From Candidatus Dadabacteria bacterium (GTDB taxonomy: Bacteria; Desulfobacterota_D; UBA1144; Nemesobacterales; UBA2774): a stretch of DNA of 7,160 nucleotides. The notes beneath the pieces are model-generated. The model was not told the DNA's origin, ran no database searches, and worked only from the letters and a program-made list of their open reading frames with translations. The translations under genes and the position numbers were made by a program. Location of the stretch: contig QIHJ01000036.1 of assembly GCA_003229065.1 (NCBI GenBank), positions 1 through 7,160 on the forward strand, read 5' to 3'. Numbering within the stretch: position 1 is the first letter of the stretch; each line of letters starts with the position of its first letter. This document shows, in pieces, positions 1-7,160 of the stretch.

Positions 1-7
1 AACAGTT

Positions 8-38
8 CTGAGCGAGTGAAGAGCGGGTCTTCGTTCAG
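8..38. repeat. Imperfect palindrome at the left edge
   Basis: The arms CTGA (8-11) and TCAG (35-38) enclose the arms GAAGA (18-22) and TCTTC (28-32) around a 5-base loop, so the element can form an interrupted hairpin. It is not followed by a T-run, so it does not look like an intrinsic terminator. The 9-mer GCGAGTGAA (12-20), followed by GTCTT, recurs in repeat block 5 at 7049-7057, which suggests this element belongs to the same repeat-rich intergenic pool. Bases 39-110 hold nothing I can identify. Confidence 0.4.
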
Positions 39-110
39 TAAATGCAACAATCTTGCTGATCGTTGGGAAAATTAACTGAACCCAAAACAAAGAGGGATTT
101 GTCTTTATGC

Positions 111-146
111 TGTCATTCTAGAGGAGCGAAGCGACGAAGAATCTCT
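111..146. repeat. Palindromic intergenic element (GAGGAGCGAAGCGACGAAG type)
   Basis: The sequence contains the arms ATTCT (115-119) and AGAAT (138-142) around a GA/CG-rich core with CGAAG and GCGACGAAG. From memory, closely similar elements that read 'tgtcattct...gaggagcgaagcgacgaagaatct' are scattered between genes in many environmental bacterial genomes. I cannot check that here. It lies just beyond the tail of repeat block 1 and may be an independent palindromic repeat. Confidence 0.5.
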
Positions 147-154
147 CCTTTATA

Positions 155-357
155 TTTTATTCCCCCATGGTATTGTTGCACACACTTGAATTAAAATAAC
201 CGCTCACCCTGAGCGCACACGCAGTGTGCAGTCGAAGGGTCGCCTCTGTCCCCATTCTGACTTTATTCCGGCGGGCATCGCTGTAAAGCGCTCGCCTCTG
301 TCCCCATTCTGACTTTATTCCGGCGGGCATCGCTGTAAAGCGCTCGCCTCTGTCCCC
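155..357 (-). repeat. Repeat block 1: long unit plus two short units, inverted
   Basis: Read on the minus strand, this block holds two identical 52-base short units (357-306 and 305-254) followed by one long unit (253-155). Each unit begins GGGGACAGAGGCG. The short units continue through GCTTTACAGCGATGCCCG and end near GGAATAAAGTCAGAAT. In the long unit a hairpin module replaces the middle: CCCT/AGGG outer arms (207-210, 236-239) and a perfect GCACAC-GCA-GTGTGC inner stem (215-229), followed by an AT-rich stretch. The long unit has a degenerate tail. This block is inverted relative to the other four. A 69-codon open frame on the minus strand here is only translated repeat and is not called a gene. 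Confidence 0.9.
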
Positions 358-398
358 ACCACACAATATCTTGCGAAATCTCTCCCGATGTTATAGAA

Positions 399-444
399 TT
401 CTTATATACTCCATAATAGATATAATTTTAAAGAAATGAGGTGA
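399..444 (+). promoter_or_regulatory. Likely promoter and ribosome binding site of yebC
   Basis: A perfect TATAAT (-10) lies at 421-426. The region about 16 bases upstream (TTCTTA, 399-404) is only a weak -35 match. A start near 433 would leave a leader of about 18 bases. The Shine-Dalgarno sequence GAGGTGA (438-444) is 6 bases before the yebC ATG. The ribosome binding site is convincing. The promoter call rests mainly on the -10 hexamer in AT-rich DNA. Confidence 0.5.
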
Positions 445-450
445 CAGGTC

Positions 451-1197
451 ATGTCAGGACATTCTAAATGGGCAAATATAAAGCACAGAAAAGCCTCTGT
501 TGACGCAAAGAGGGGCAAGATTTTCACCAAGCTCATCCGTGAGCTTACGGTGGCCGCAAAGCACGGCGGCGGGGATATAGAGTCAAACCCCAGGCTCAGA
601 ACCGCTATAAACACCGCCAAGGGCGCTAACATGCCCAACGACACCATAGACCGTGCGGTAAAGCGCGGCACGGGTGAGATCGGCGGAGACGATTTTCACG
701 AGCTTTCGTATGAGGGATACGGCCCCGGGGGAAGCGCCGTGCTGGTGCGCACGCTTACAGATAACAAGAACAGAACGGTGTCCGATATAAGAAGAATATT
801 TACCAAACACGGGGGCAACCTGGGCGAAAACGGCTGTGTCGCTTGGATGTTCGATATGAAGGGACGCATTGCATTTGAAAAAGACACTGTGGACGAAGAG
901 CAGGTATTTGACCTGGTGCTCGATGCCGGAGCGGACGACGTAGTTACCGAGGATAGCGAGCTTGTGGTTATAACCCCGCCTGAGGAGATAGAAACGGTTA
1001 AATCGGTCCTCGATGAAGCGGGGCTAAAGTATGAAACGGCTGAAGTTACGATGATCCCGGAGAATAACGTAAAGATCGAAGGAAAAGAAGCGGAACACAT
1101 GATCCGCCTCATGGAAGCGCTTGAGGACAGTGATGATGTTCAGAATGTCTATTCAAATTTTGATATTCCCGAAGAATTAATTGAGAGCCTGACGTAA
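451..1197 (+). CDS. yebC: YebC/TACO1-family gene-expression factor
   Basis: This 248-residue protein has the usual length for the family. It opens with the hallmark [14 protein letters not shown], then [15 protein letters not shown] (24-38), NPRLRTAI (46-53), [11 protein letters not shown] (59-69), YEGYGPGG (87-94), [12 protein letters not shown] (103-114) and KHGGNLG (119-125). Family members were first described as DNA-binding regulators (PmpR type). The mitochondrial relative TACO1 and some bacterial YebC proteins are instead linked to translation, including at proline-rich stretches, so the molecular role here is left open between transcription and translation. The protein should be cytoplasmic. 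The start is fixed by the family N-terminus and by GAGGTGA 6 bases upstream. Its position directly before ruvC is a widespread arrangement. Inverted repeat blocks lie on either side of the gene. Confidence 0.95.
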
Positions 1198-1250
1198 CTA
1201 AAGGAGTCCCCAATCAGTGCATGGGATGACAAAACAATTGAAATGACCAT
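1198..1250 (+). other. Short spacer after yebC with an orphan Shine-Dalgarno-like motif
   Basis: AAAGGAG (1200-1206) begins three bases after the yebC stop. The only starts within reach lead to peptides of under ten codons that I would not call genes. The motif may be a relic of the original ribosome binding site of the next gene, now separated from it by repeat block 2. This is inference. The motif could also be chance. Confidence 0.3.
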
Positions 1251-1408
1251 GGGGACAGAGGCGAGCGTCTTACCGCGATGCCCGCAGGAATAAAATTAGA
1301 AATAGGGACAGAGGCGACCCTTCGACTGCACACTGCGTGTGCGCTCAGGGTGAACGGTTATTTTAATTCAAGTGCGTGCAGCGATGCCCGCAGGAATAAA
1401 ATAAAAAT
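1251..1408 (+). repeat. Repeat block 2: short unit plus long unit, abutting ruvC
   Basis: A 53-base short unit (1251-1303) is followed by a long unit (1304-1408) whose tail ends at the base before the ruvC ATG. The long unit carries the hairpin module at 1318-1350: CCCT/AGGG outer arms and a GCACAC-TGC-GTGTGC inner stem at 1328-1342. An AT-rich stretch and the shared tail GCGATGCCCGCAGGAATAAA follow. The tail supplies AGGA (1392-1395), 13 bases before the ATG, and a TAAAAT hexamer (1397-1402), 6 bases before it. Confidence 0.9.
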
Positions 1409-1954
1409 ATGAGGGTAATCGGAATAGACCCTGGCTCAAGGATTTGCGGCTACGGGGTGCTTGAGGTCCGAAACGGAGATATAGCACACGTGGCTAGCGG
1501 AAGTATTGCGCCCAAATCGAGCCTGGAAATGCCTCAGAGGCTAAAGATCATATATGAGGGACTCGTGGAGGTTATAAGCGAGCATAAGCCCGAGGCAATT
1601 TCCATAGAGGACATCTTCTTTGCCAAGAACGCCCGGAGCGCTATAAAACTGGGCCAGGCAAGGGGGGTCGCGCTTTTAGCGGCTTCTACTTCAGGCATTA
1701 CCATCCACGAATACTCTCCGACAAAGGTGAAGCTCGCGCTCACCGGAAGGGGGAGGGCAAACAAACTCGAGATGCAGAGGATGCTCACATCGATATTGGG
1801 AATAGCCGACTTTGAGAGCACCGACGCCTCAGACGCCGTGGCCATTGCGCTTTGCCATATTCACCTTTCACGCATCGAAAGAAGGCTCGGAGCCGAGTTT
1901 GTCAAGCCAAGGAGAAAGAGGAGGCGTTTTACATTAGATGATCTCCCTTCTTAG
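1409..1954 (+). CDS. ruvC: Crossover junction endodeoxyribonuclease RuvC
   Basis: RuvC is the Holliday-junction resolvase. It acts as a dimer and cuts symmetrically related strands of the four-way junction bound by RuvAB. The 181-residue protein has the RNase H-like fold signature and all four acidic catalytic positions: Asp7 (GIDPGS), Glu67 (SIEDIF), Asp139 and Asp142 (STDASDAVA). The basic loop GRGRANK (113-119) is also present. The C-terminus is a Lys/Arg-rich tail (KPRRKRRR, 166-173), slightly longer than in the roughly 173-residue E. coli protein. The ATG is set by the family start MRVIGIDPG. No good Shine-Dalgarno sequence is present, since the nearest AGGA is 13 bases away inside the preceding repeat. 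The 3' end overlaps ruvA by 17 bases, which suggests translational coupling. Confidence 0.96.
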   Translation: MRVIGIDPGSRICGYGVLEVRNGDIAHVASGSIAPKSSLEMPQRLKIIYEGLVEVISEHKPEAISIEDIFFAKNARSAIKLGQARGVALLAASTSGITIHEYSPTKVKLALTGRGRANKLEMQRMLTSILGIADFESTDASDAVAIALCHIHLSRIERRLGAEFVKPRRKRRRFTLDDLPS

Positions 1955-2528
1955 AGGTAACATCGCGAAAAAAGAACTTGGAAGCGTTATCATGGACGTA
2001 CAGGGAGTGGGGTACGGGGTTACGGTTCCGCTTTCGACATTCTACCGTCTTCCGGAGCTCGGAAGTGAAGCTCAGTTAATCATACATACGCACATGAAAG
2101 ACAGCGGGATCGAGCTCTTCGGCTTTCTAACCGAGGAAGAAAAGGCCGTCTTTAACCTGCTCATCGGAGTATCAGGCGTAGGTCCCAAGCTTGCAATTGG
2201 CATACTGTCCAACGTCGACCCGGGGGAATTTGCCTCTGCCGTCGCATCAGGCGAATTGCAGAGGAAGAAGATTCCAGGCATAGGGCCTAAACTCGCCTCG
2301 AGGCTTCAGAACGAGCTAAAGGACAAAGTGCCCAAGCTGAGCTTCTCTGAAGAGACCAAGCGGGAAGGCACAATTGCAGGGGACGTGATCTCGGCACTCC
2401 TTAACCTGGGCTATAAAAAGAACGAGATAGATGAGCGTATCAAGCAGCTTGAAGAAATCGCCTCAAGAGAAGACGATATAGAAAAAGCGCTCAGAGAATC
2501 GCTTAAGCTCATGAAGCAGATTTCATAA
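1938..2528 (+). CDS. ruvA: Holliday junction branch-migration protein RuvA
   Basis: RuvA binds the four-way junction as a tetramer and loads the RuvB motor. The 196-residue protein shows all three domains. An N-terminal OB-fold begins MISLLRG and includes VQGVGYGV (21-28). Two helix-hairpin-helix motifs follow: GVSGVGPKLA (77-86) and KIPGIGPKLASRL (111-123). A flexible linker leads to the RuvB-binding domain III (about 146-196). The acidic pin, Glu55-Asp56 in E. coli, aligns without gaps to Asp55-Ser56, so one acid is missing. The start lies inside ruvC. AGAGGAGG (1917-1924) is 13 bases upstream, a rather long spacing, so coupling to ruvC termination is likely. ruvB does not follow directly but comes after a repeat array. 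Confidence 0.95.
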   Translation: MISLLRGNIAKKELGSVIMDVQGVGYGVTVPLSTFYRLPELGSEAQLIIHTHMKDSGIELFGFLTEEEKAVFNLLIGVSGVGPKLAIGILSNVDPGEFASAVASGELQRKKIPGIGPKLASRLQNELKDKVPKLSFSEETKREGTIAGDVISALLNLGYKKNEIDERIKQLEEIASREDDIEKALRESLKLMKQIS

Positions 2529-2572
2529 AATTCCAAAACTATTAATCTCCTCTAAGAAGTTATATATTATAT

Positions 2573-2731
2573 GGGGACGGAGGCGAGCGTTTCACAGCGA
2601 TGCCCGCAGGAATAAAATTAGAAATGGGGACGGAGGCGAGCGTTTCACAGCGATGCCCGCAGGAATAAAATTAGAAATGGGGACGGAGGCGAGCACTTCA
2701 CAGCGATGCCTGCAGGAATAAAATCAAAATA
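2573..2731 (+). repeat. Repeat block 3: three tandem short units between ruvA and ruvB
   Basis: Three head-to-tail units with an exact 53-base period start at 2573, 2626 and 2679. The first two appear identical. The third differs at a few positions, for example GCACTTCACA for GCGTTTCACA and a T in TGCCTGC. They begin GGGGACGGAGGCGAGC and end in CAGGAATAAAAT plus an A-rich tail. Each contains TTCACA, 16 bases, then TAAAAT; in the third these lie at 2697-2702 and 2719-2724, with the ruvB ATG at 2739. There are no unique spacers between units, so this is not a CRISPR array. Confidence 0.93.
2697..2724 (+). promoter_or_regulatory. Promoter-like pair in the repeat copy next to ruvB
   Basis: TTCACA (2697-2702, 5 of 6 bases of the sigma70 -35 consensus) and TAAAAT (2719-2724, 5 of 6 of the -10 consensus) are separated by 16 bases. 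A start about 7 bases downstream would fall near 2731 and give ruvB a leader of only about 8 bases. That fits the lack of any Shine-Dalgarno motif there. The same pair occurs in the two upstream units at 2591/2613 and 2644/2666. This is inference from consensus matching, and transcription is untested. Confidence 0.4.
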
Positions 2732-2738
2732 GCCAATC

Positions 2739-3761
2739 ATGAATGAAAGAATCATAACCCCAGACGGGCAGGAAGAGGATGCTCTATTCGACGTTAATCT
2801 CAGGCCCTCACGTCTTAAAGACTACCTGGGCCAGGTAAAGATAAAGGAAAAGGTGGGGATATTTATAGAGGCCGCAAAGAGGCGTAAAGAGGCGCTCGAC
2901 CATGTTCTTCTGTACGGCCCCCCGGGGCTGGGTAAGACGACGCTCGCGCACATAGTGGCAAACGAGCTCGGAGTGAGGATTTACTCCACCTCTGGCCCGG
3001 TCGTAGAAAGAGTGGGCGACCTGGCTTCTATCCTGACTAACCTCGAAGATAGAGACGTTCTCTTTATAGACGAGATACACCGCCTCAATAGAATTGTGGA
3101 AGAATATCTCTATTCGGCAATGGAGGACTATAAGATAGACATAATGATAGGCGAGGGCCCTACCGCAAAGTCGATGAAAGTGAGTGTGAACCACTTTACT
3201 CTCATCGGGGCTACCACCAGGACAGGGCTTCTTACTTCCCCTCTGCGCTCCAGATTCGGCGTCGATCTCAGGCTCGACTACTACAATTCGGCTGAGATCG
3301 AGGGGATATTAAAACGCTCGGCAAAGATACTCAGCGTCGAGGCCTCACCAAAGGGAGTTCAGGAGATATCCTGCCGCGCCCGAGGTACACCCAGGGTTGC
3401 CAATAGACTCCTTAAAAGGGTAAGAGACTATGCGGAGGTAAAGGCGGACGGTAATGTGACTGAAGAGGTGGCAATACGGGCTCTCGACATGCTAGAGGTG
3501 GATTCACTCGGCCTCGACGGTCTAGACAGGATGATACTCGAGACAATAATAGAAAAATTCAGGGGAGGTCCCGTGGGCATCGATACCCTCTCCGCGGCAG
3601 TGAGTGAAGAAAGGGACACTATCGAAGACGTATACGAGCCCTATCTCGTGCGCGAGGGGCTTCTTGTAAAAACGCCCAGAGGCAGGGAAGTCACCCCTCT
3701 TGCTTACGACCACCTGAACATAGCCCCGCCCCACATGCAAAAAGGTCTTTTCAGGAAGTAA
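2739..3761 (+). CDS. ruvB: Holliday junction branch-migration ATPase RuvB
   Basis: RuvB is the AAA+ hexameric motor that pulls DNA through RuvA-bound junctions using ATP. The 340-residue protein is of normal length. It shows the family N-terminus with [12 protein letters not shown] (21-32), Walker A GPPGLGKT (60-67), Walker B VLFIDEIH (107-114), sensor 1 region [16 protein letters not shown] (155-170), an arginine-finger candidate Arg172 in SRFG, sensor 2 Arg219 in [12 protein letters not shown], and a C-terminal winged helix (about 256-340) with [15 protein letters not shown]. The start is set by homology; no ribosome binding site is visible because the preceding DNA is repeat tail. ruvB is separated from ruvCA by 210 bases containing three repeats, so it may have its own transcript. 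The stop codon touches repeat block 4. Confidence 0.96.
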
Positions 3762-3955
3762 TGGGGACAGAGGCGAGCGCTTCACAGCGATGCCGGGGAA
3801 TTAATAATGGGGACGGACCGGAGCACAAAGTGCGATCGGGGGGCAGGAATAAAATCAAGTAGACAGAGGCGACCCTTCGACTACACACTGCGTGTGCGCT
3901 CAGGGTGAGCGGTTATATTAATTCAAGTGTGTACAGCGATGCCGGGGAGTTATTC
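3762..3955 (+). repeat. Repeat block 4: short, diverged and long units after ruvB
   Basis: A degenerate short unit (3763-3808) begins immediately after the ruvB TAA. A diverged unit (3809-3860) keeps the head GGGGACGG and the tail GGCAGGAATAAAAT but has a different middle, GGAGCACAAAGTGCGATCGG. A long unit (3861 to about 3955) follows with a shortened head and the hairpin module (outer arms 3873-3876 and 3902-3905; one G-to-A change shortens the inner stem). Bases 3956-4022 hold no gene; the G-rich and A-rich stretch there has no clear role. Confidence 0.88.
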
Positions 3956-3990
3956 AGAAACTGGCGGGGTTGGTGATGTTTTTGTAGTTA

Positions 3991-4037
3991 CCTCCTTAGT
4001 AAAAGGGGGGGTATAAAAAAACTTACTTACTAAGAGG
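3991..4037. repeat. Imperfect inverted repeat at the 3' end of the exported-protein gene
   Basis: CCTCCTTAGTAA (3991-4002) is mirrored by TTACTAAGAGG (4027-4037) with one bulged base, around a 24-base loop that contains runs of G and A. The right arm lies inside the last codons of the minus-strand gene. It could fold as an mRNA 3' stem. The T-run on the minus strand falls in the loop and not after the stem, so it is not a typical intrinsic terminator. Confidence 0.5.
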
Positions 4038-4472
4038 TATCTCTCTTATAAATTCATCCCAGTGCTCTTCTGTGATTAGGTCAATCTCCTTTCTCGGGGT
4101 TTTGTAGCCCTTCTCGCCAGGGAATAGCTTCGAATAAACCTGGTTCCTCATCTCAAGCCACTTATCAATAGCCGCGTAATTGGGGAATTTAACTACAGTC
4201 TTGTACGTCCAGAGGGGCTCTAGCGTATGCACTCTCTGTGAGTAGAGCTTATATTCTTCTGTTATTATCCCCATTTTCCGCATCTCTTCCCAGAAGGGAT
4301 ACAATTTCTCCCTATAAACTTGAAGGAATTTCTCCGTATTCTCAGGCTTTACGACATAAAAGCTCTCCTCTATCACCACGGTGTATCTGCCTTCCTCCGA
4401 GAAGCTCAGTTGCGGGGACAGAAGATAAAGTGAAATAATAGTCAGTGCGGTTATGATTGAGATTCTTGTCAT
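4023..4472 (-). CDS. Small exported protein of unknown function
   Basis: I do not recognise a named family. Starting at the ATG at 4472 gives 149 residues. The in-frame GTG just upstream (4475) is less likely, because AAGGAGG ends 6 bases before the ATG but only 3 before the GTG. Residues 1 to about 25 form a signal peptide: MTR, a hydrophobic stretch (4-19), then SFSEEG. The mature part of about 125 residues has a beta strand (YTVVIEESFYVV, 30-41), a long helix (43-68), a strand (70-80), a strand (WTYKTVVKF, 88-96) and a helix (99-116). This order resembles the ferredoxin-like halves of dimeric alpha-beta-barrel proteins (NIPSNAP/ABM-like), which is a weak structural analogy only. It has many aromatic residues, and the mature part has no cysteine. 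It probably acts in the periplasm or at the envelope. It is divergent from tolQ, and nothing links it functionally to the ruv or tol genes. Confidence 0.85.
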   Translation of the reverse strand: MTRISIITALTIISLYLLSPQLSFSEEGRYTVVIEESFYVVKPENTEKFLQVYREKLYPFWEEMRKMGIITEEYKLYSQRVHTLEPLWTYKTVVKFPNYAAIDKWLEMRNQVYSKLFPGEKGYKTPRKEIDLITEEHWDEFIREIPLSK

Positions 4473-4727
4473 CACGCGCCTCCTTTTTTAAGCCCAGCTT
4501 TTATATTATCTTAGTACCGGGAGTAATAATAATATATTCTCTACTCAAAATCTAACGGGCGGATTTAAACCGCTCGGGCTTTCATAATCCCAGTTGATTT
4601 TACATATTATGTATGGAACACTTTAGATTAAATCTAAGGTGTGGCTCATTTGTATCTATATAGTCTCAAGTGTTGAATTTCAGAAATGTTCAAATCCTAA
4701 ATCTATCATATCAGCGGGTAAATTAGC
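4473..4727. promoter_or_regulatory. Divergent intergenic region with three small dyads
   Basis: This 255-base AT-rich region must hold the promoters of the exported-protein gene and the tol operon. It has no member of the dispersed repeat family. On the minus strand AAGGAGG lies just before the exported-protein start. Three inverted repeats are present: GCGG-7-CCGC (4559-4573), TACATA-T-TATGTA (4601-4613) and TTAGATT-A-AATCTAA (4623-4637). TTGAAT (4673-4678) and TATCAT (4704-4709) are promoter-like hexamers but are 25 bases apart, so I do not call them a pair. Confidence 0.5.
4601..4637. promoter_or_regulatory. Two adjacent perfect dyads upstream of tolQ, possible operator
   Basis: TACATA-T-TATGTA (4601-4613) is a perfect 6+1+6 inverted repeat and TTAGATT-A-AATCTAA (4623-4637) a perfect 7+1+7 inverted repeat. 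Their centres (4607 and 4630) are 23 bases apart, about two helical turns. Paired dyads of this size between divergent genes are typical of sites for dimeric regulators. In AT-rich DNA such dyads also arise by chance, and no regulator is encoded nearby. Confidence 0.35.
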
Positions 4728-5486
4728 ATGACAAACTGGATATATTTCGTGTTGCAGGCGCAGGCAGAGACCACAGCGGAGCAGGTAAAGATAATGAGCC
4801 TCGTAACCCAGGCAGGCCCTGTCGTAAAAGCGGTTCTTCTGATTCTCTTATTCATGTCTGTAGTATGCTGGACCATAGTGTTCTCAAAGTACTTTGTACT
4901 GAGAAAAGCGACCCGGAGCTCGGACAAATTCCTCGATCTCTATAACGCAAGCGGAAACTTCGGGAACCTCTACTCCTCAACAAAACACATCAGCGGGCCG
5001 ATTGCCGAAGTGTTCAGAGCGGGCTACACGGAGATACTTAAAATCCGCAGGTCAAGCGGATCGGGACAAAATCCCGAGGGCGGCGGGAGCCCCGAAATGA
5101 TGTCAAATGAGCTCGGCATGATCGAGCTTGTGGAGAGGGCGCTAAACAGATCTATGTCGTCAGAAACGTCTAAACTTGAAAGCTCGCTTACATTTTTAGC
5201 CACTACCGGAAGCGCGGCCCCTTTTATAGGGCTCTTCGGCACCGTCTGGGGCATCATGACTTCTTTCATTGGGCTTGTGGGCAGTGAAGGCGTACCCACT
5301 CTACAGGCAGTGGCGCCAGGAATTGCAGAAGCGCTCATAGCAACCGCGATAGGCCTGGCAGCCGCCATACCGGCAGTTATAGCGTATAATTACTTCGTAA
5401 GCCGCGTAAAGCGCATTGATGTTGATATGGAAAACTTTTCATCCGAGTTCTTAAATATCGTGGATAGATATATAAAGAAGGTGTAA
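4728..5486 (+). CDS. tolQ: Tol-Pal motor subunit TolQ (MotA/TolQ/ExbB family)
   Basis: TolQ forms the inner-membrane proton channel with TolR and energises TolA, supporting outer-membrane constriction at division. The 252-residue protein has three membrane segments: about 31-54 (VVKAVLLILLFMSVVCWTIV core), about 160-185 (GSAAPFIGLFGTVWGIM) and about 198-223 (GIAEALIATAIGLAAAIPAVI). The last two carry the family's conserved Pro, Gly and Thr residues. The cytoplasmic loop contains a Gly/Ser-rich insert (109-123). The ATG at 4728 lacks a clear Shine-Dalgarno sequence. The in-frame ATG at 4794 (Met23) has AGG 8 bases upstream and would give 230 residues, so it is a real alternative. Dense packing with tolR and a TolA-type third gene favour TolQ over ExbB. 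No ybgC gene precedes it. Confidence 0.92.
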   Translation: MTNWIYFVLQAQAETTAEQVKIMSLVTQAGPVVKAVLLILLFMSVVCWTIVFSKYFVLRKATRSSDKFLDLYNASGNFGNLYSSTKHISGPIAEVFRAGYTEILKIRRSSGSGQNPEGGGSPEMMSNELGMIELVERALNRSMSSETSKLESSLTFLATTGSAAPFIGLFGTVWGIMTSFIGLVGSEGVPTLQAVAPGIAEALIATAIGLAAAIPAVIAYNYFVSRVKRIDVDMENFSSEFLNIVDRYIKKV

Positions 5487-5495
5487 TAGAGCGAT

Positions 5496-5936
5496 ATGGG
5501 AATGCAGACTCAAAAACCAGGCGGCCGTACCGTGATGGCCGAGATAAACGTAACGCCCTTTGTCGATGTTATGTTGGTGCTCCTTATCATCTTTATGGTG
5601 ACAACGCCGATATTGTATCAAGGGGTTGATGTGAAACTCCCTAAGACCGAGTCAAAGTCCGTGCCGTCCATAGACCGCGAGAAGAAAGTCGTGGTAACTT
5701 TGAACGGCGACGGTGAGATATTTATAGAGAAGAACGAATATACGCTCGATGAGCTCAGGGTAGAGGTCAGACGGCTGATGGCCTCCGAAGGTAAAGATAT
5801 AGAGACCGAAAGCGTTTTTCTGAGGGCTGATACATCAGTCCCTTACGGCACGGTCGTCGAGGTAATGTCCGAGATCAGAAACGCCGGTGTCACGAATCTC
5901 GGGCTTATCACGGAGCCTGTGACTAGCCAGAGGTAA
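5496..5936 (+). CDS. tolR: Tol-Pal motor subunit TolR (ExbD/TolR family)
   Basis: TolR is the single-pass partner of TolQ and its membrane aspartate carries protons. The 146-residue protein has a short cytoplasmic N-terminus, the family motif AEINVTPFVDVMLVLLIIFM (15-34) with the key Asp24, one membrane helix (about 23-42) and a periplasmic domain (about 45-146) with VVVTLNGDGEIFIEKNEY and a C-terminal VMSEIRNAGVTNLGLITEP. Its length matches the family. It starts 9 bases after tolQ. GAAGGTG (5477-5483) at the tolQ end is 12 bases upstream, so translation may be coupled. Met3 (5502) is a possible alternative start. Confidence 0.94.
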   Translation: MGMQTQKPGGRTVMAEINVTPFVDVMLVLLIIFMVTTPILYQGVDVKLPKTESKSVPSIDREKKVVVTLNGDGEIFIEKNEYTLDELRVEVRRLMASEGKDIETESVFLRADTSVPYGTVVEVMSEIRNAGVTNLGLITEPVTSQR

Positions 5937-5946
5937 GCGGTAGAAT

Positions 5947-7029
5947 ATGAAAAGATCCGATAAAGATCCTTCCAAGGGTACGTCATTTTGGGGAATGGTT
6001 TTTTCAATAGTGCTCCATGCATCAGTCATTGTTCTGATACTATTTTGGGGCTTCAGAGGGGTGTCTGAATACAGCGGCTCGAGCGGGCCTATACAGGTGT
6101 CGCTTTCGTCATTAGACACCGGGCAGGGCAATAAAGCGCCCGCTAAAAAGACTCAAACGAAAACTAAAAAAGCCGAGCCCAAGAAAGTAGAGAAAAAACC
6201 CGTAACTAAAAAAGCCGAGAAAAAAAAGGAAGTAAAGAAGGAGGAGGTAAAAGCTCCTCCGGAACCTCCCAAGAAAGAGGAAGAACCTAAAAAAGAAGAG
6301 ATCAAGAAAGTTGAAAAAAAGGAAGAACCCAAAAAAGATGAAAAGCCCAAAGAAGAGCCTAAGAAAGAGGAGAAACCAAAGAAAGCTGTAAAGAAAGAGC
6401 CTGAAAAAAAAGAGCCCGTCCCTCTTGAGCCTGAAAAGAAAGAAGAGAAGAAGGTAGCCGAGAAACCAAAACCTACGGAAAAGCCAAAACCTAAAAAGGA
6501 AGAAAAAAAAGCTCAGAAAAAACCCCAAAAGAAATCATTAGACAAAGAGAGAAGCAGGGTGCTTAAGGACATTCAGAGACAAAAGGTGCTCGATCAGTTA
6601 GGGAGCAGCGAAGAGCCGGATGAACCTGAAGAGCCTATGGGCGAGGAGCAGAAGCTTGCCATGGCCGATGCCGAGGAGACGGGTCTTGAGACAAGAGGCC
6701 CGGCCGGAAGCTCAAACGGCGGCTCGTCTGTAAGCCCGGTGATACTAAATCTATATAGCAATCAGGTACATAGAAAAATAAGTCGTAACTGGAGAATTCC
6801 CCCGAGCGTTCCCACAGATGGCGGGCTTGCGACTGATCTACTTTTTAAAGTCGACCAGGACGGTAAAATCTACGACGTAAGGGTAAGCGAATCATCGGGG
6901 AACCCGGTGTTCGATGAATACTGCATAAACGCAATCTATAAATCAGCCCCGCTACCGCCCCCGCCTTCGGAGCTTAAGAAAGAGGCTAAGGATAAGGGAA
7001 TCATTATTACATTCAGAAACGAACCCTAG
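5947..7029 (+). CDS. tolA: TolA-type periplasm-spanning protein (TolA/TonB family)
   Basis: TolA is anchored in the inner membrane, driven by TolQR, and reaches across the periplasm to TolB/Pal. The 360-residue protein has one N-terminal membrane helix (about 14-36) with the Ser20-x3-His24 motif used by TolA and TonB to couple to the motor. A very Lys/Glu/Pro-rich spacer follows (about 64-200), then an acidic segment (220-245), a Gly/Ser linker (251-263) and a C-terminal globular domain (about 266-360) with FKVDQDGKIYDVRVSESSGN, the FDEYCINAI helix and the PLPPPP turn typical of TolA/TonB_C domains. The spacer has prolines every few residues, more like TonB than the Ala/Lys/Glu helix of E. 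coli TolA. TonB therefore remains an alternative, but gene order favours TolA. It starts 10 bases after tolR; AGAGG (5929-5933) is the nearest ribosome binding candidate. Confidence 0.85.
   Translation: MKRSDKDPSKGTSFWGMVFSIVLHASVIVLILFWGFRGVSEYSGSSGPIQVSLSSLDTGQGNKAPAKKTQTKTKKAEPKKVEKKPVTKKAEKKKEVKKEEVKAPPEPPKKEEEPKKEEIKKVEKKEEPKKDEKPKEEPKKEEKPKKAVKKEPEKKEPVPLEPEKKEEKKVAEKPKPTEKPKPKKEEKKAQKKPQKKSLDKERSRVLKDIQRQKVLDQLGSSEEPDEPEEPMGEEQKLAMADAEETGLETRGPAGSSNGGSSVSPVILNLYSNQVHRKISRNWRIPPSVPTDGGLATDLLFKVDQDGKIYDVRVSESSGNPVFDEYCINAIYKSAPLPPPPSELKKEAKDKGIIITFRNEP
6130..6545 (+). repeat. Purine-rich low-complexity stretch inside tolA
   Basis: This part of tolA is built from AAG, AAA, GAA, GAG and CCN codons. 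It gives a strongly purine-rich coding strand and many near-repeats of KKEEPKK- and EKPK-type peptides. The open frames on the opposite strand are only poly-Phe/Leu shadows. Internal similarity makes the stretch prone to in-frame length change, so spacer length may vary between strains. Confidence 0.8.
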
Positions 7030-7117
7030 GGGACAGAGGCTGGGGGCCGCGAGTGAACGTCTTGTGTGAGCGAGAGCAGGAGTAAAATTAGTACAGCGAT
7101 GCCCGCAGGAATAGAAT
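7029..7117 (+). repeat. Repeat block 5: diverged units after tolA
   Basis: The head GGGGACAGAGGC begins on the last base of the tolA TAG stop. Its middle is unrelated to the standard unit (7041-7076) and contains GCGAGTGAA followed by GTCTT, as in the palindrome at 8-38. The tail GCAGGAGTAAAATTA comes next, and then a second tail without a head, ACAGCGATGCCCGCAGGAATA, ends at 7117. It looks like one diverged unit plus one truncated unit. Confidence 0.8.
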
Positions 7118-7145
7118 CAGGATACAAGATGCAGGATTCAGGATG
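7118..7145 (+). repeat. Four 7-base tandem repeats, consensus CAGGATN
   Basis: The units are CAGGATA, CAAGATG, CAGGATT and CAGGATG. They directly follow repeat block 5. The last unit contains the ATG (7143) of a possible downstream gene, and the third unit places AGGA 6 bases before that ATG. The array could therefore serve as the ribosome binding site. Confidence 0.7.
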
Positions 7146-7160
7146 AAAAGAATAAAAGAT
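7143..7160 (+). CDS. Possible start of the next tol-operon gene (tolB?), cut by the window end
   Basis: Six codons (MKRIKD) are open to the window edge, with AGGA (7133-7136) at a good spacing of 6 bases. A Lys/Arg-rich beginning would suit a signal peptide, and tolB normally follows tolA, so tolB is the expected gene. Six codons cannot prove it; the call rests on position and ribosome binding spacing only. Confidence 0.35.

Follow-up and report, generated by a model that had tools for sequence, protein, structure and literature searches.

Short repeats occupy most of the gaps between the genes of a housekeeping locus in Candidatus Dadabacteria bacterium (assembly GCA_003229065.1, contig QIHJ01000036.1, positions 1 to 7,160; this whole stretch of 7,160 nucleotides, contig C68 of its genome, is the window). 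The locus raises the question of what these units are and how they reached their places. A sequence-only reading had set them in five blocks (155-357, 1251-1408, 2573-2731, 3762-3955 and 7029-7117), as a modular, mostly intergenic, genome-wide and recently active family that it could not name. All five blocks are found as placed. The units belong to a genuine family of hairpin elements, so far seen only in this genus of Dadabacteria, and the family is a new variant of the repetitive extragenic palindrome (REP) and bacterial interspersed mosaic element (BIME) kind, with an unusual polar, modular build.

A hairpin-element family of one genus

The window belongs to a metagenome-assembled genome (MAG; G000) of 2.05 Mb in 446 contigs, 80.3% complete. 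It was compared with a congeneric MAG (G001), 82% complete and very probably an assembly of Candidatus Dadabacteria bacterium UBA2774, within a panel of 60 genomes consisting of these two and 58 other relatives. A query built from the window units finds 67 matches on 31 of the 446 contigs of G000, a rough minimum (40 of 53 candidates were scored, and some matches overlap), and at least 18 in G001, where 15 of 51 candidates were scored. Eight of the 67 lie on the 7-kb window contig, which is therefore denser than average, and the best match outside the window reaches E 1.5e-22 (one genome). The 58 other relatives give no match to this query except a single 20-nt one in G056. Within a named genome collection, a repeat pattern occurs in one organism only, UBA2774 (14 stretches).

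The profile search yields 85 matches in 34 contigs of G000 and 34 in 16 stretches of G001. These sequences (225,581 bases including the window, with C1 cut at 20,000, and 163,977 bases, respectively) underlie the profile, array and context counts; they were picked for having matches, and their densities should not be read as averages for the genome. The modular, genome-wide and mostly intergenic character is borne out: 83 of the 85 profile matches in G000, and 28 of the 34 in G001, lie outside the open reading frames (ORFs) predicted by a home-made codon-score caller in place of a trained gene finder. No gene separates the block from the contig end in 21 of 47 G000 repeat blocks; the repeats therefore probably break the G000 assembly, and copy numbers are minima.

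Module C, described below, gives 16 matches in G000, 12 in G001 and a single 24-nt match among 19 other genomes. The pattern of the B/D hairpins with free N positions gives 11 and 7, with two single matches in the 58 others and none for its reversed control. Phages and plasmids, queried with one array, contain no match, and neither do viral contigs queried with one exact pattern. No repeat is matched by an Rfam covariance model at E 1 in the five stretches searched (the window, L080, L082, L094 and L145), and literature searches, whose sources were available in part, returned no description of this repeat family. The units have neither the GTAG nor the CGTC tag of catalogued REPs, and the sequence-only reading had not recognised them as a named repeat.

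Exchangeable bodies between a common head and variable tails

At least five hairpin bodies are placed between a common head (ATGGGGACAGA and variants) and tail variants such as GGCAGGAATAAAAT. In the listed copies, the head precedes the hairpin as GACAGA, GACGGA or a near variant; it stands at the hairpin foot in types A and B, and a G-rich stretch lies between head and hairpin in type C and some type D units. The type A body reads GGCGAGCG-variable-GCGATGCC, type B CCGGAG-arm-loop-arm-CGATCGG, type C GGCTGGGGGCGGCGAGTGAACG..GAGAGC and type D GGGAGTGC-GAA-GCACGATCC, while type E is type A with a CCCTTCGA..TCAGGGTGA hairpin nested after GGCGA. Units inside arrays frequently start GAGGACAG or GAAGACAG. 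The common unit described earlier is one of these modules, and the tail quoted for it, GCGATGCCCGCAGGAATAAA, is one of several variants. The hairpin that it noted in long copies is present, the long unit being a short unit that carries the nested hairpin. Its short, long and diverged copies are all seen, and the several kinds of hairpin body and the genome-wide one-way arrays had escaped it.

Other repeats share parts with these modules or enclose them. The nested piece of type E is found also on its own in both MAGs, and a separate composite repeat, ATTTATGTATGTCGG..TCACCCTTCGA..TCAGGGTGA..GGTGCCGAGATT, contains the same hairpin (L143:1578-1630, L138:11623-11694, L142:3707-3791, L147:8407 and L147:10012). 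Of the 58 other relatives, 8 contain the pattern CCCTTCGAC..GCTCAGGGTGA. Another hairpin repeat, GAGATCCCG..GCCCGGRATGAC, encloses a type A unit or a type A array at three places in G000 and one in G001 (L088:2479, L093:1703, L094:3157 and L150:11083). A reading of type A as a small peptide, with an ORF from ATGGGG, was rejected, as a two-base difference in the tail (GCCCGCAGG versus GCCGGGGCAGG) shifts the frame.

Compensatory changes in the hairpins

Base changes on the two arms compensate each other in two module groups, the B/D hairpins and the nested E hairpins, which indicates that the hairpins are real. For B/D, 26 rows passed the filter and 24 (21 distinct) were used, the other two, which have neither head nor tail, being removed because they probably match by chance. 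These hairpins consist of an invariant GA..GAT internal loop within a stem of 3 + 4 bp, the outer part occurring as CCG/CGG, CGG/CCG or GGC/GCC and the inner part as CAC/GTG, GGC/GCC, TGC/GCA or CGC/GCG. In the 24 rows, 95.2% of 147 cells are paired and 29 cells carry a double change, compared with 8.5 in shuffles; none of 500 shuffles is as high in percentage paired, double-change cells or score. A pattern that leaves the arms unspecified has 18 matches in the two MAGs, and 17 of these, as read from the list, pair at the N position. The 8 distinct rows of nested E hairpins have 97.9% of their cells paired and 4 pairs doubly changed, a level reached by 1 of 500 shuffles. Four B/D-type examples folded as DNA show the same bulge, with z from -0.95 to -2.34.

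Arrays of one direction

Arrays were counted with a neighbour limit of 120 nt between cores, leaving out module C, which its expression does not detect; the reversed control gives 3 matches for A and none for B, D or E. In G000, 27 of 43 blocks hold several modules, all 27 run one way, 22 of them mix module types, and all 47 neighbouring module pairs point in the same direction. In G001, 3 of 23 blocks hold several modules, and these are all one-way and all mixed, with 5 of 5 pairs in the same direction. Together, 52 of 52 neighbouring pairs are direct, and modules are mixed in 25 of the 30 arrays.

Relative to the genes, the orientation that the sequence-only reading had described as mostly that of transcription is a weak trend only: of the same-strand contexts, 11 have the direction of the genes and 4 the opposite one in G000, and 5 and 3 in G001. 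Divergent genes flank 7 of the 26 classifiable blocks in G000 and 5 of the 18 in G001.

A derived insertion and other differences at orthologous junctions

The window locus is syntenic in G001, and synteny tests were made against the 16 G001 stretches only. Between the yebC stop and the ruvC start, the window carries 211 nt (1198..1408), made up of an A-E pair, with type A at 1249..1296 and type E at 1303..1402, both on the plus strand, together with roughly 50 nt outside the pair. The same junction measures 1-4 nt in G001, G009, G002, G003, G012 and G007; ten loci were fetched, ruvC was visible in six, and the junction is tight in all six. The window insertion is therefore derived, which supports the recent activity proposed earlier. 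A second A-E pair of G000, at L088:726-837, is absent from G001, a comparison with one relative only. The site L080:2038 appears empty in G001, where a run of N occupies that place, and was excluded from the counts.

Neighbouring junctions differ in content between the two MAGs. In the ruvA-ruvB gap, G000 has three units where G001 has one. At the 3' end of ruvB, where the window has A-B-E units, G001 carries a CGTCATTGCGAGGCTCC-type repeat and others (L150, about 14240-14520); a G001 repeat beside ruvB, CGTCATTGCGAGG.., looks CGTC-like by its tag.

Units and genes of the window

The units of the window, placed by the profile unless stated otherwise, number seven short and three long, with a B unit, a C unit and a truncated tail in addition, in agreement with the earlier count of seven short, three long and about three other copies. 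On the minus strand, a long type E unit with head, nested CCCTTCGA..TCAGGGTGA hairpin and diverged tail occupies ~153..256 (low end by eye), next to two type A units at 260..307 and 312..358 that form an exact 52-nt tandem. The remaining units lie on the plus strand. Beyond the yebC-ruvC pair, the ruvA-ruvB array consists of three type A units at 2571..2618, 2624..2671 and 2677..2724. A type A unit with a short tail, next to the ruvB stop codon (3761..3804), is followed by a type B unit with hairpin CCGGAGCAC-AAA-GTGCGATCGG (3807..3855, from the pattern and module listing) and a type E unit (3862..3949). Next to the tolA stop codon, a type C unit (7029..7091, from the module C search) adjoins the truncated type A tail (7090..7117).

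Pfam assigns the window proteins to YebC, RuvC, RuvA, RuvB, TolQ/ExbB-type, TolR/ExbD-type and TonB-C (TolA-like). The gene at 4023-4475 has no match in Pfam; in G014 and G011, the sequence immediately before ruvB encodes a similar C-terminus (..DEFIREIPLQK), with one like it in G010, and the gene seems from its sequence to be a conserved neighbour of ruvB. Another dispersed repeat lies at the other end of the window: positions 1-106 are 88% identical to L094:2798-2903, and positions 96-119 match L138. Positions 115-146 look by eye like a degenerate CATTCT..AGAATC hairpin repeat.

Candidate mechanism of spread

Dispersed copies, covariation, polarity, the derived insertion and the parallel with E. 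coli TnpA-REP lead us to favour, tentatively and at somewhat less than even confidence, non-autonomous single-strand hairpin elements that are moved in trans by a predicted transposase of IS200/IS605 type (Y1, HUH), combined with local tandem duplication. The predicted enzyme, lost or unassembled in both MAGs, would move the gene-less units as single-stranded DNA. It may recognise one strand through the head motif and the bulged hairpin, and would cut near both unit ends. If the end of a unit restores the target, a new unit would be placed beside the old one, giving one-way arrays, and local tandem duplication would produce runs of identical units.

A number of results weigh against this proposal. 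A REP-associated transposase, suggested at the outset as a check, does not turn up: PF01797 (Y1/RAYT, for REP-associated tyrosine transposase) matches 29 of the 60 genomes and at E 0.001 neither G000 nor G001, and at E 10 it gives one G001 match only (12.5 bits, E 0.23). Absence is not proven by this, since both MAGs are incomplete and, with 21 of 47 blocks at contig ends, a repeat-flanked gene could be lost in assembly; a RAYT-type mobiliser is neither confirmed nor excluded. A Y1 gene occurs in only 2 of 14 other genomes of the same family, and the 5' foot of the units reads GACAGA or GACGGA and not GT[AG]G. GT[AG]G is typical of RAYT-linked REPs, most of which have it, and subclass 2.6 and class 3 are described as atypical and without it (PMC6006769); the rarity of Y1 and these atypical subclasses pull in opposite directions. 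Target duplication or an exact cut site is unreadable at both sites, whose flanks have diverged, and the absence of L088:726-837 from G001 may possibly reflect loss. Polarity has one exception, an opposite pair with units 119 nt apart at L093:1703-1912, the only one of 26 multi-hit G000 blocks with opposite units when profile matches are clustered at a 150-nt limit; its cores exceed the 120-nt limit, and it is thus absent from the 52 pairs. Of the hairpin statistics, two are matched by many shuffles, 45 of 500 attaining the number of B/D pairs with a double change (5) and 377 the number of pair types, and the far lower scores of slid control structures come from a comparison that favours the B/D structure, as it was derived from the tested sequences. 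Type A is weaker still: its cores folded as DNA give z of -1.57 and -0.37, whole units fold no better than shuffles (z 0.08, -0.27 and 0.31), and the interior shows no covariation by eye.

One further lead concerns G022, where a Y1_Tnp gene on L054 has the inverted pair AAATAGGGACAGAC[AG]CTATTT on its two sides (1180 and 1922). A link between the head and these GGGACAGAC flanks was considered and set aside as weak: it consists of one inverted pair, and the flanks occur at only 4 places in G022, which is not a large family and adds to the points against the proposed mobiliser.

Several of the same observations would also follow without a dedicated enzyme, if the units spread by gene conversion, template switching and replication slippage at the common heads and tails, with modules exchanged by recombination and arrays enlarged by tandem duplication. 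Of 14 adjacent A-A pairs, 8 have identical variable interiors, compared with a share of 8.4% among 3460 non-local pairs (from 84 interiors, a few of them plainly non-family), which points to plain local tandem duplication, a process that does not itself make mixed arrays. The change from one to three ruvA-ruvB units, the meeting of the nested E hairpin and type A at a common GAGCG (by eye) and the lack of a transposase in the two incomplete MAGs are consistent with such recombination. It would hardly bring a two-unit array to the formerly empty yebC-ruvC junction, however, or yield mixed arrays whose modules all point the same way, and we regard it as somewhat unlikely. Those mixed one-way arrays and their bulged hairpins recall integron-like assembly, in which a tyrosine recombinase links single-stranded hairpins head to tail, but the units are gene-less and lie at many sites rather than on one platform. 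The integron-integrase model gives no match over its cut-off in any of 21 genomes, including the incomplete G000 and G001; weaker matches in all 21 and in all 14 controls are those that ordinary tyrosine recombinases would give. Such assembly is very improbable.

A role in the host is a different matter. The hairpins could be kept as RNA elements, acting as transcript 3' ends or as signals of stability or termination, and the compensatory changes in B/D and nested E hairpins, the units immediately 3' of the ruvB and tolA stop codons and the near-exclusive location outside ORFs in G000 would suit this account. It is made improbable by the occurrence of both orientations to genes, by the blocks between divergent genes, by orthologous junctions that lack units or carry other repeats, and by the lack of an Rfam match in the five stretches. 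To return to movement by an enzyme, a bolder and rather unlikely version takes the polar hairpin cassettes as a new class of miniature mobile DNA: where units already stand, an enzyme specific for one strand would join further cassettes on, head to tail. If so, a fixed head with few tails would act as a universal joint between which several unrelated hairpins are interchangeable, and the result would be one-way mosaic arrays, integron-like but gene-less.

Relation to REPs, BIMEs and other hairpin repeats

The closest likeness is to the GTAG REPs and their RAYTs (E. coli, group 2), which are likewise short intergenic bulged hairpins with a motif at the 5' foot and many copies, with compensatory changes and with copies at stop codons (PMC8266576, PMC3733652, PMC2817692). 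E. coli TnpA-REP is described as processing the REP strand only and as requiring a bulged hairpin and the preceding conserved motif (PMC8266576). Types B and D are bulged palindromes within the 20-50 nt of GTAG REPs, type A being weaker, and the copies are many and mostly intergenic. Unlike GTAG REPs, the Dadabacteria arrays are direct and one-way rather than inverted pairs, and no RAYT is found in either incomplete MAG; REPINs, the paired form of REPs, are reported in RAYT-less E. coli genomes as well, at lower number (PMC8049555).

Dispersed hairpins without a known dedicated transposase are also a feature of CGTC REPs, for which head-to-tail pairs are described as negligible (PMC3733652). 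The Dadabacteria units differ from these in having no CGTC/TGTC tag, 8-9 bp stem or CCA tail. With BIMEs they share mosaic clusters in which hairpin repeats are joined by linkers; in BIMEs, REPs alternate in orientation, and hybrid clusters of different REPs are described (PMC2817692). The paired or alternating inverted orientation of REPINs and BIMEs contrasts with the uniformly direct neighbours found here. Integron cassette arrays are set apart by their integrase, for which no genome in the set of 21 exceeds the cut-off.

In conclusion, the family works like REP and yet is not filed as REP, as its tag and its orientation were both tested and differ. Described palindromic repeats stand mostly in inverse pairs and, if their mobiliser is known, usually depend on a single tetranucleotide and a single family of enzymes. 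A family that has different covarying hairpins in one place, another foot motif and one-way arrays would tell apart what a mobiliser recognises in such a repeat (foot motif and bulge) and what it disregards (stem sequence). In G000 and G001, a natural genome pair whose insertion site can be read, the spread of such repeats, and whether they survive their transposase, would become testable.

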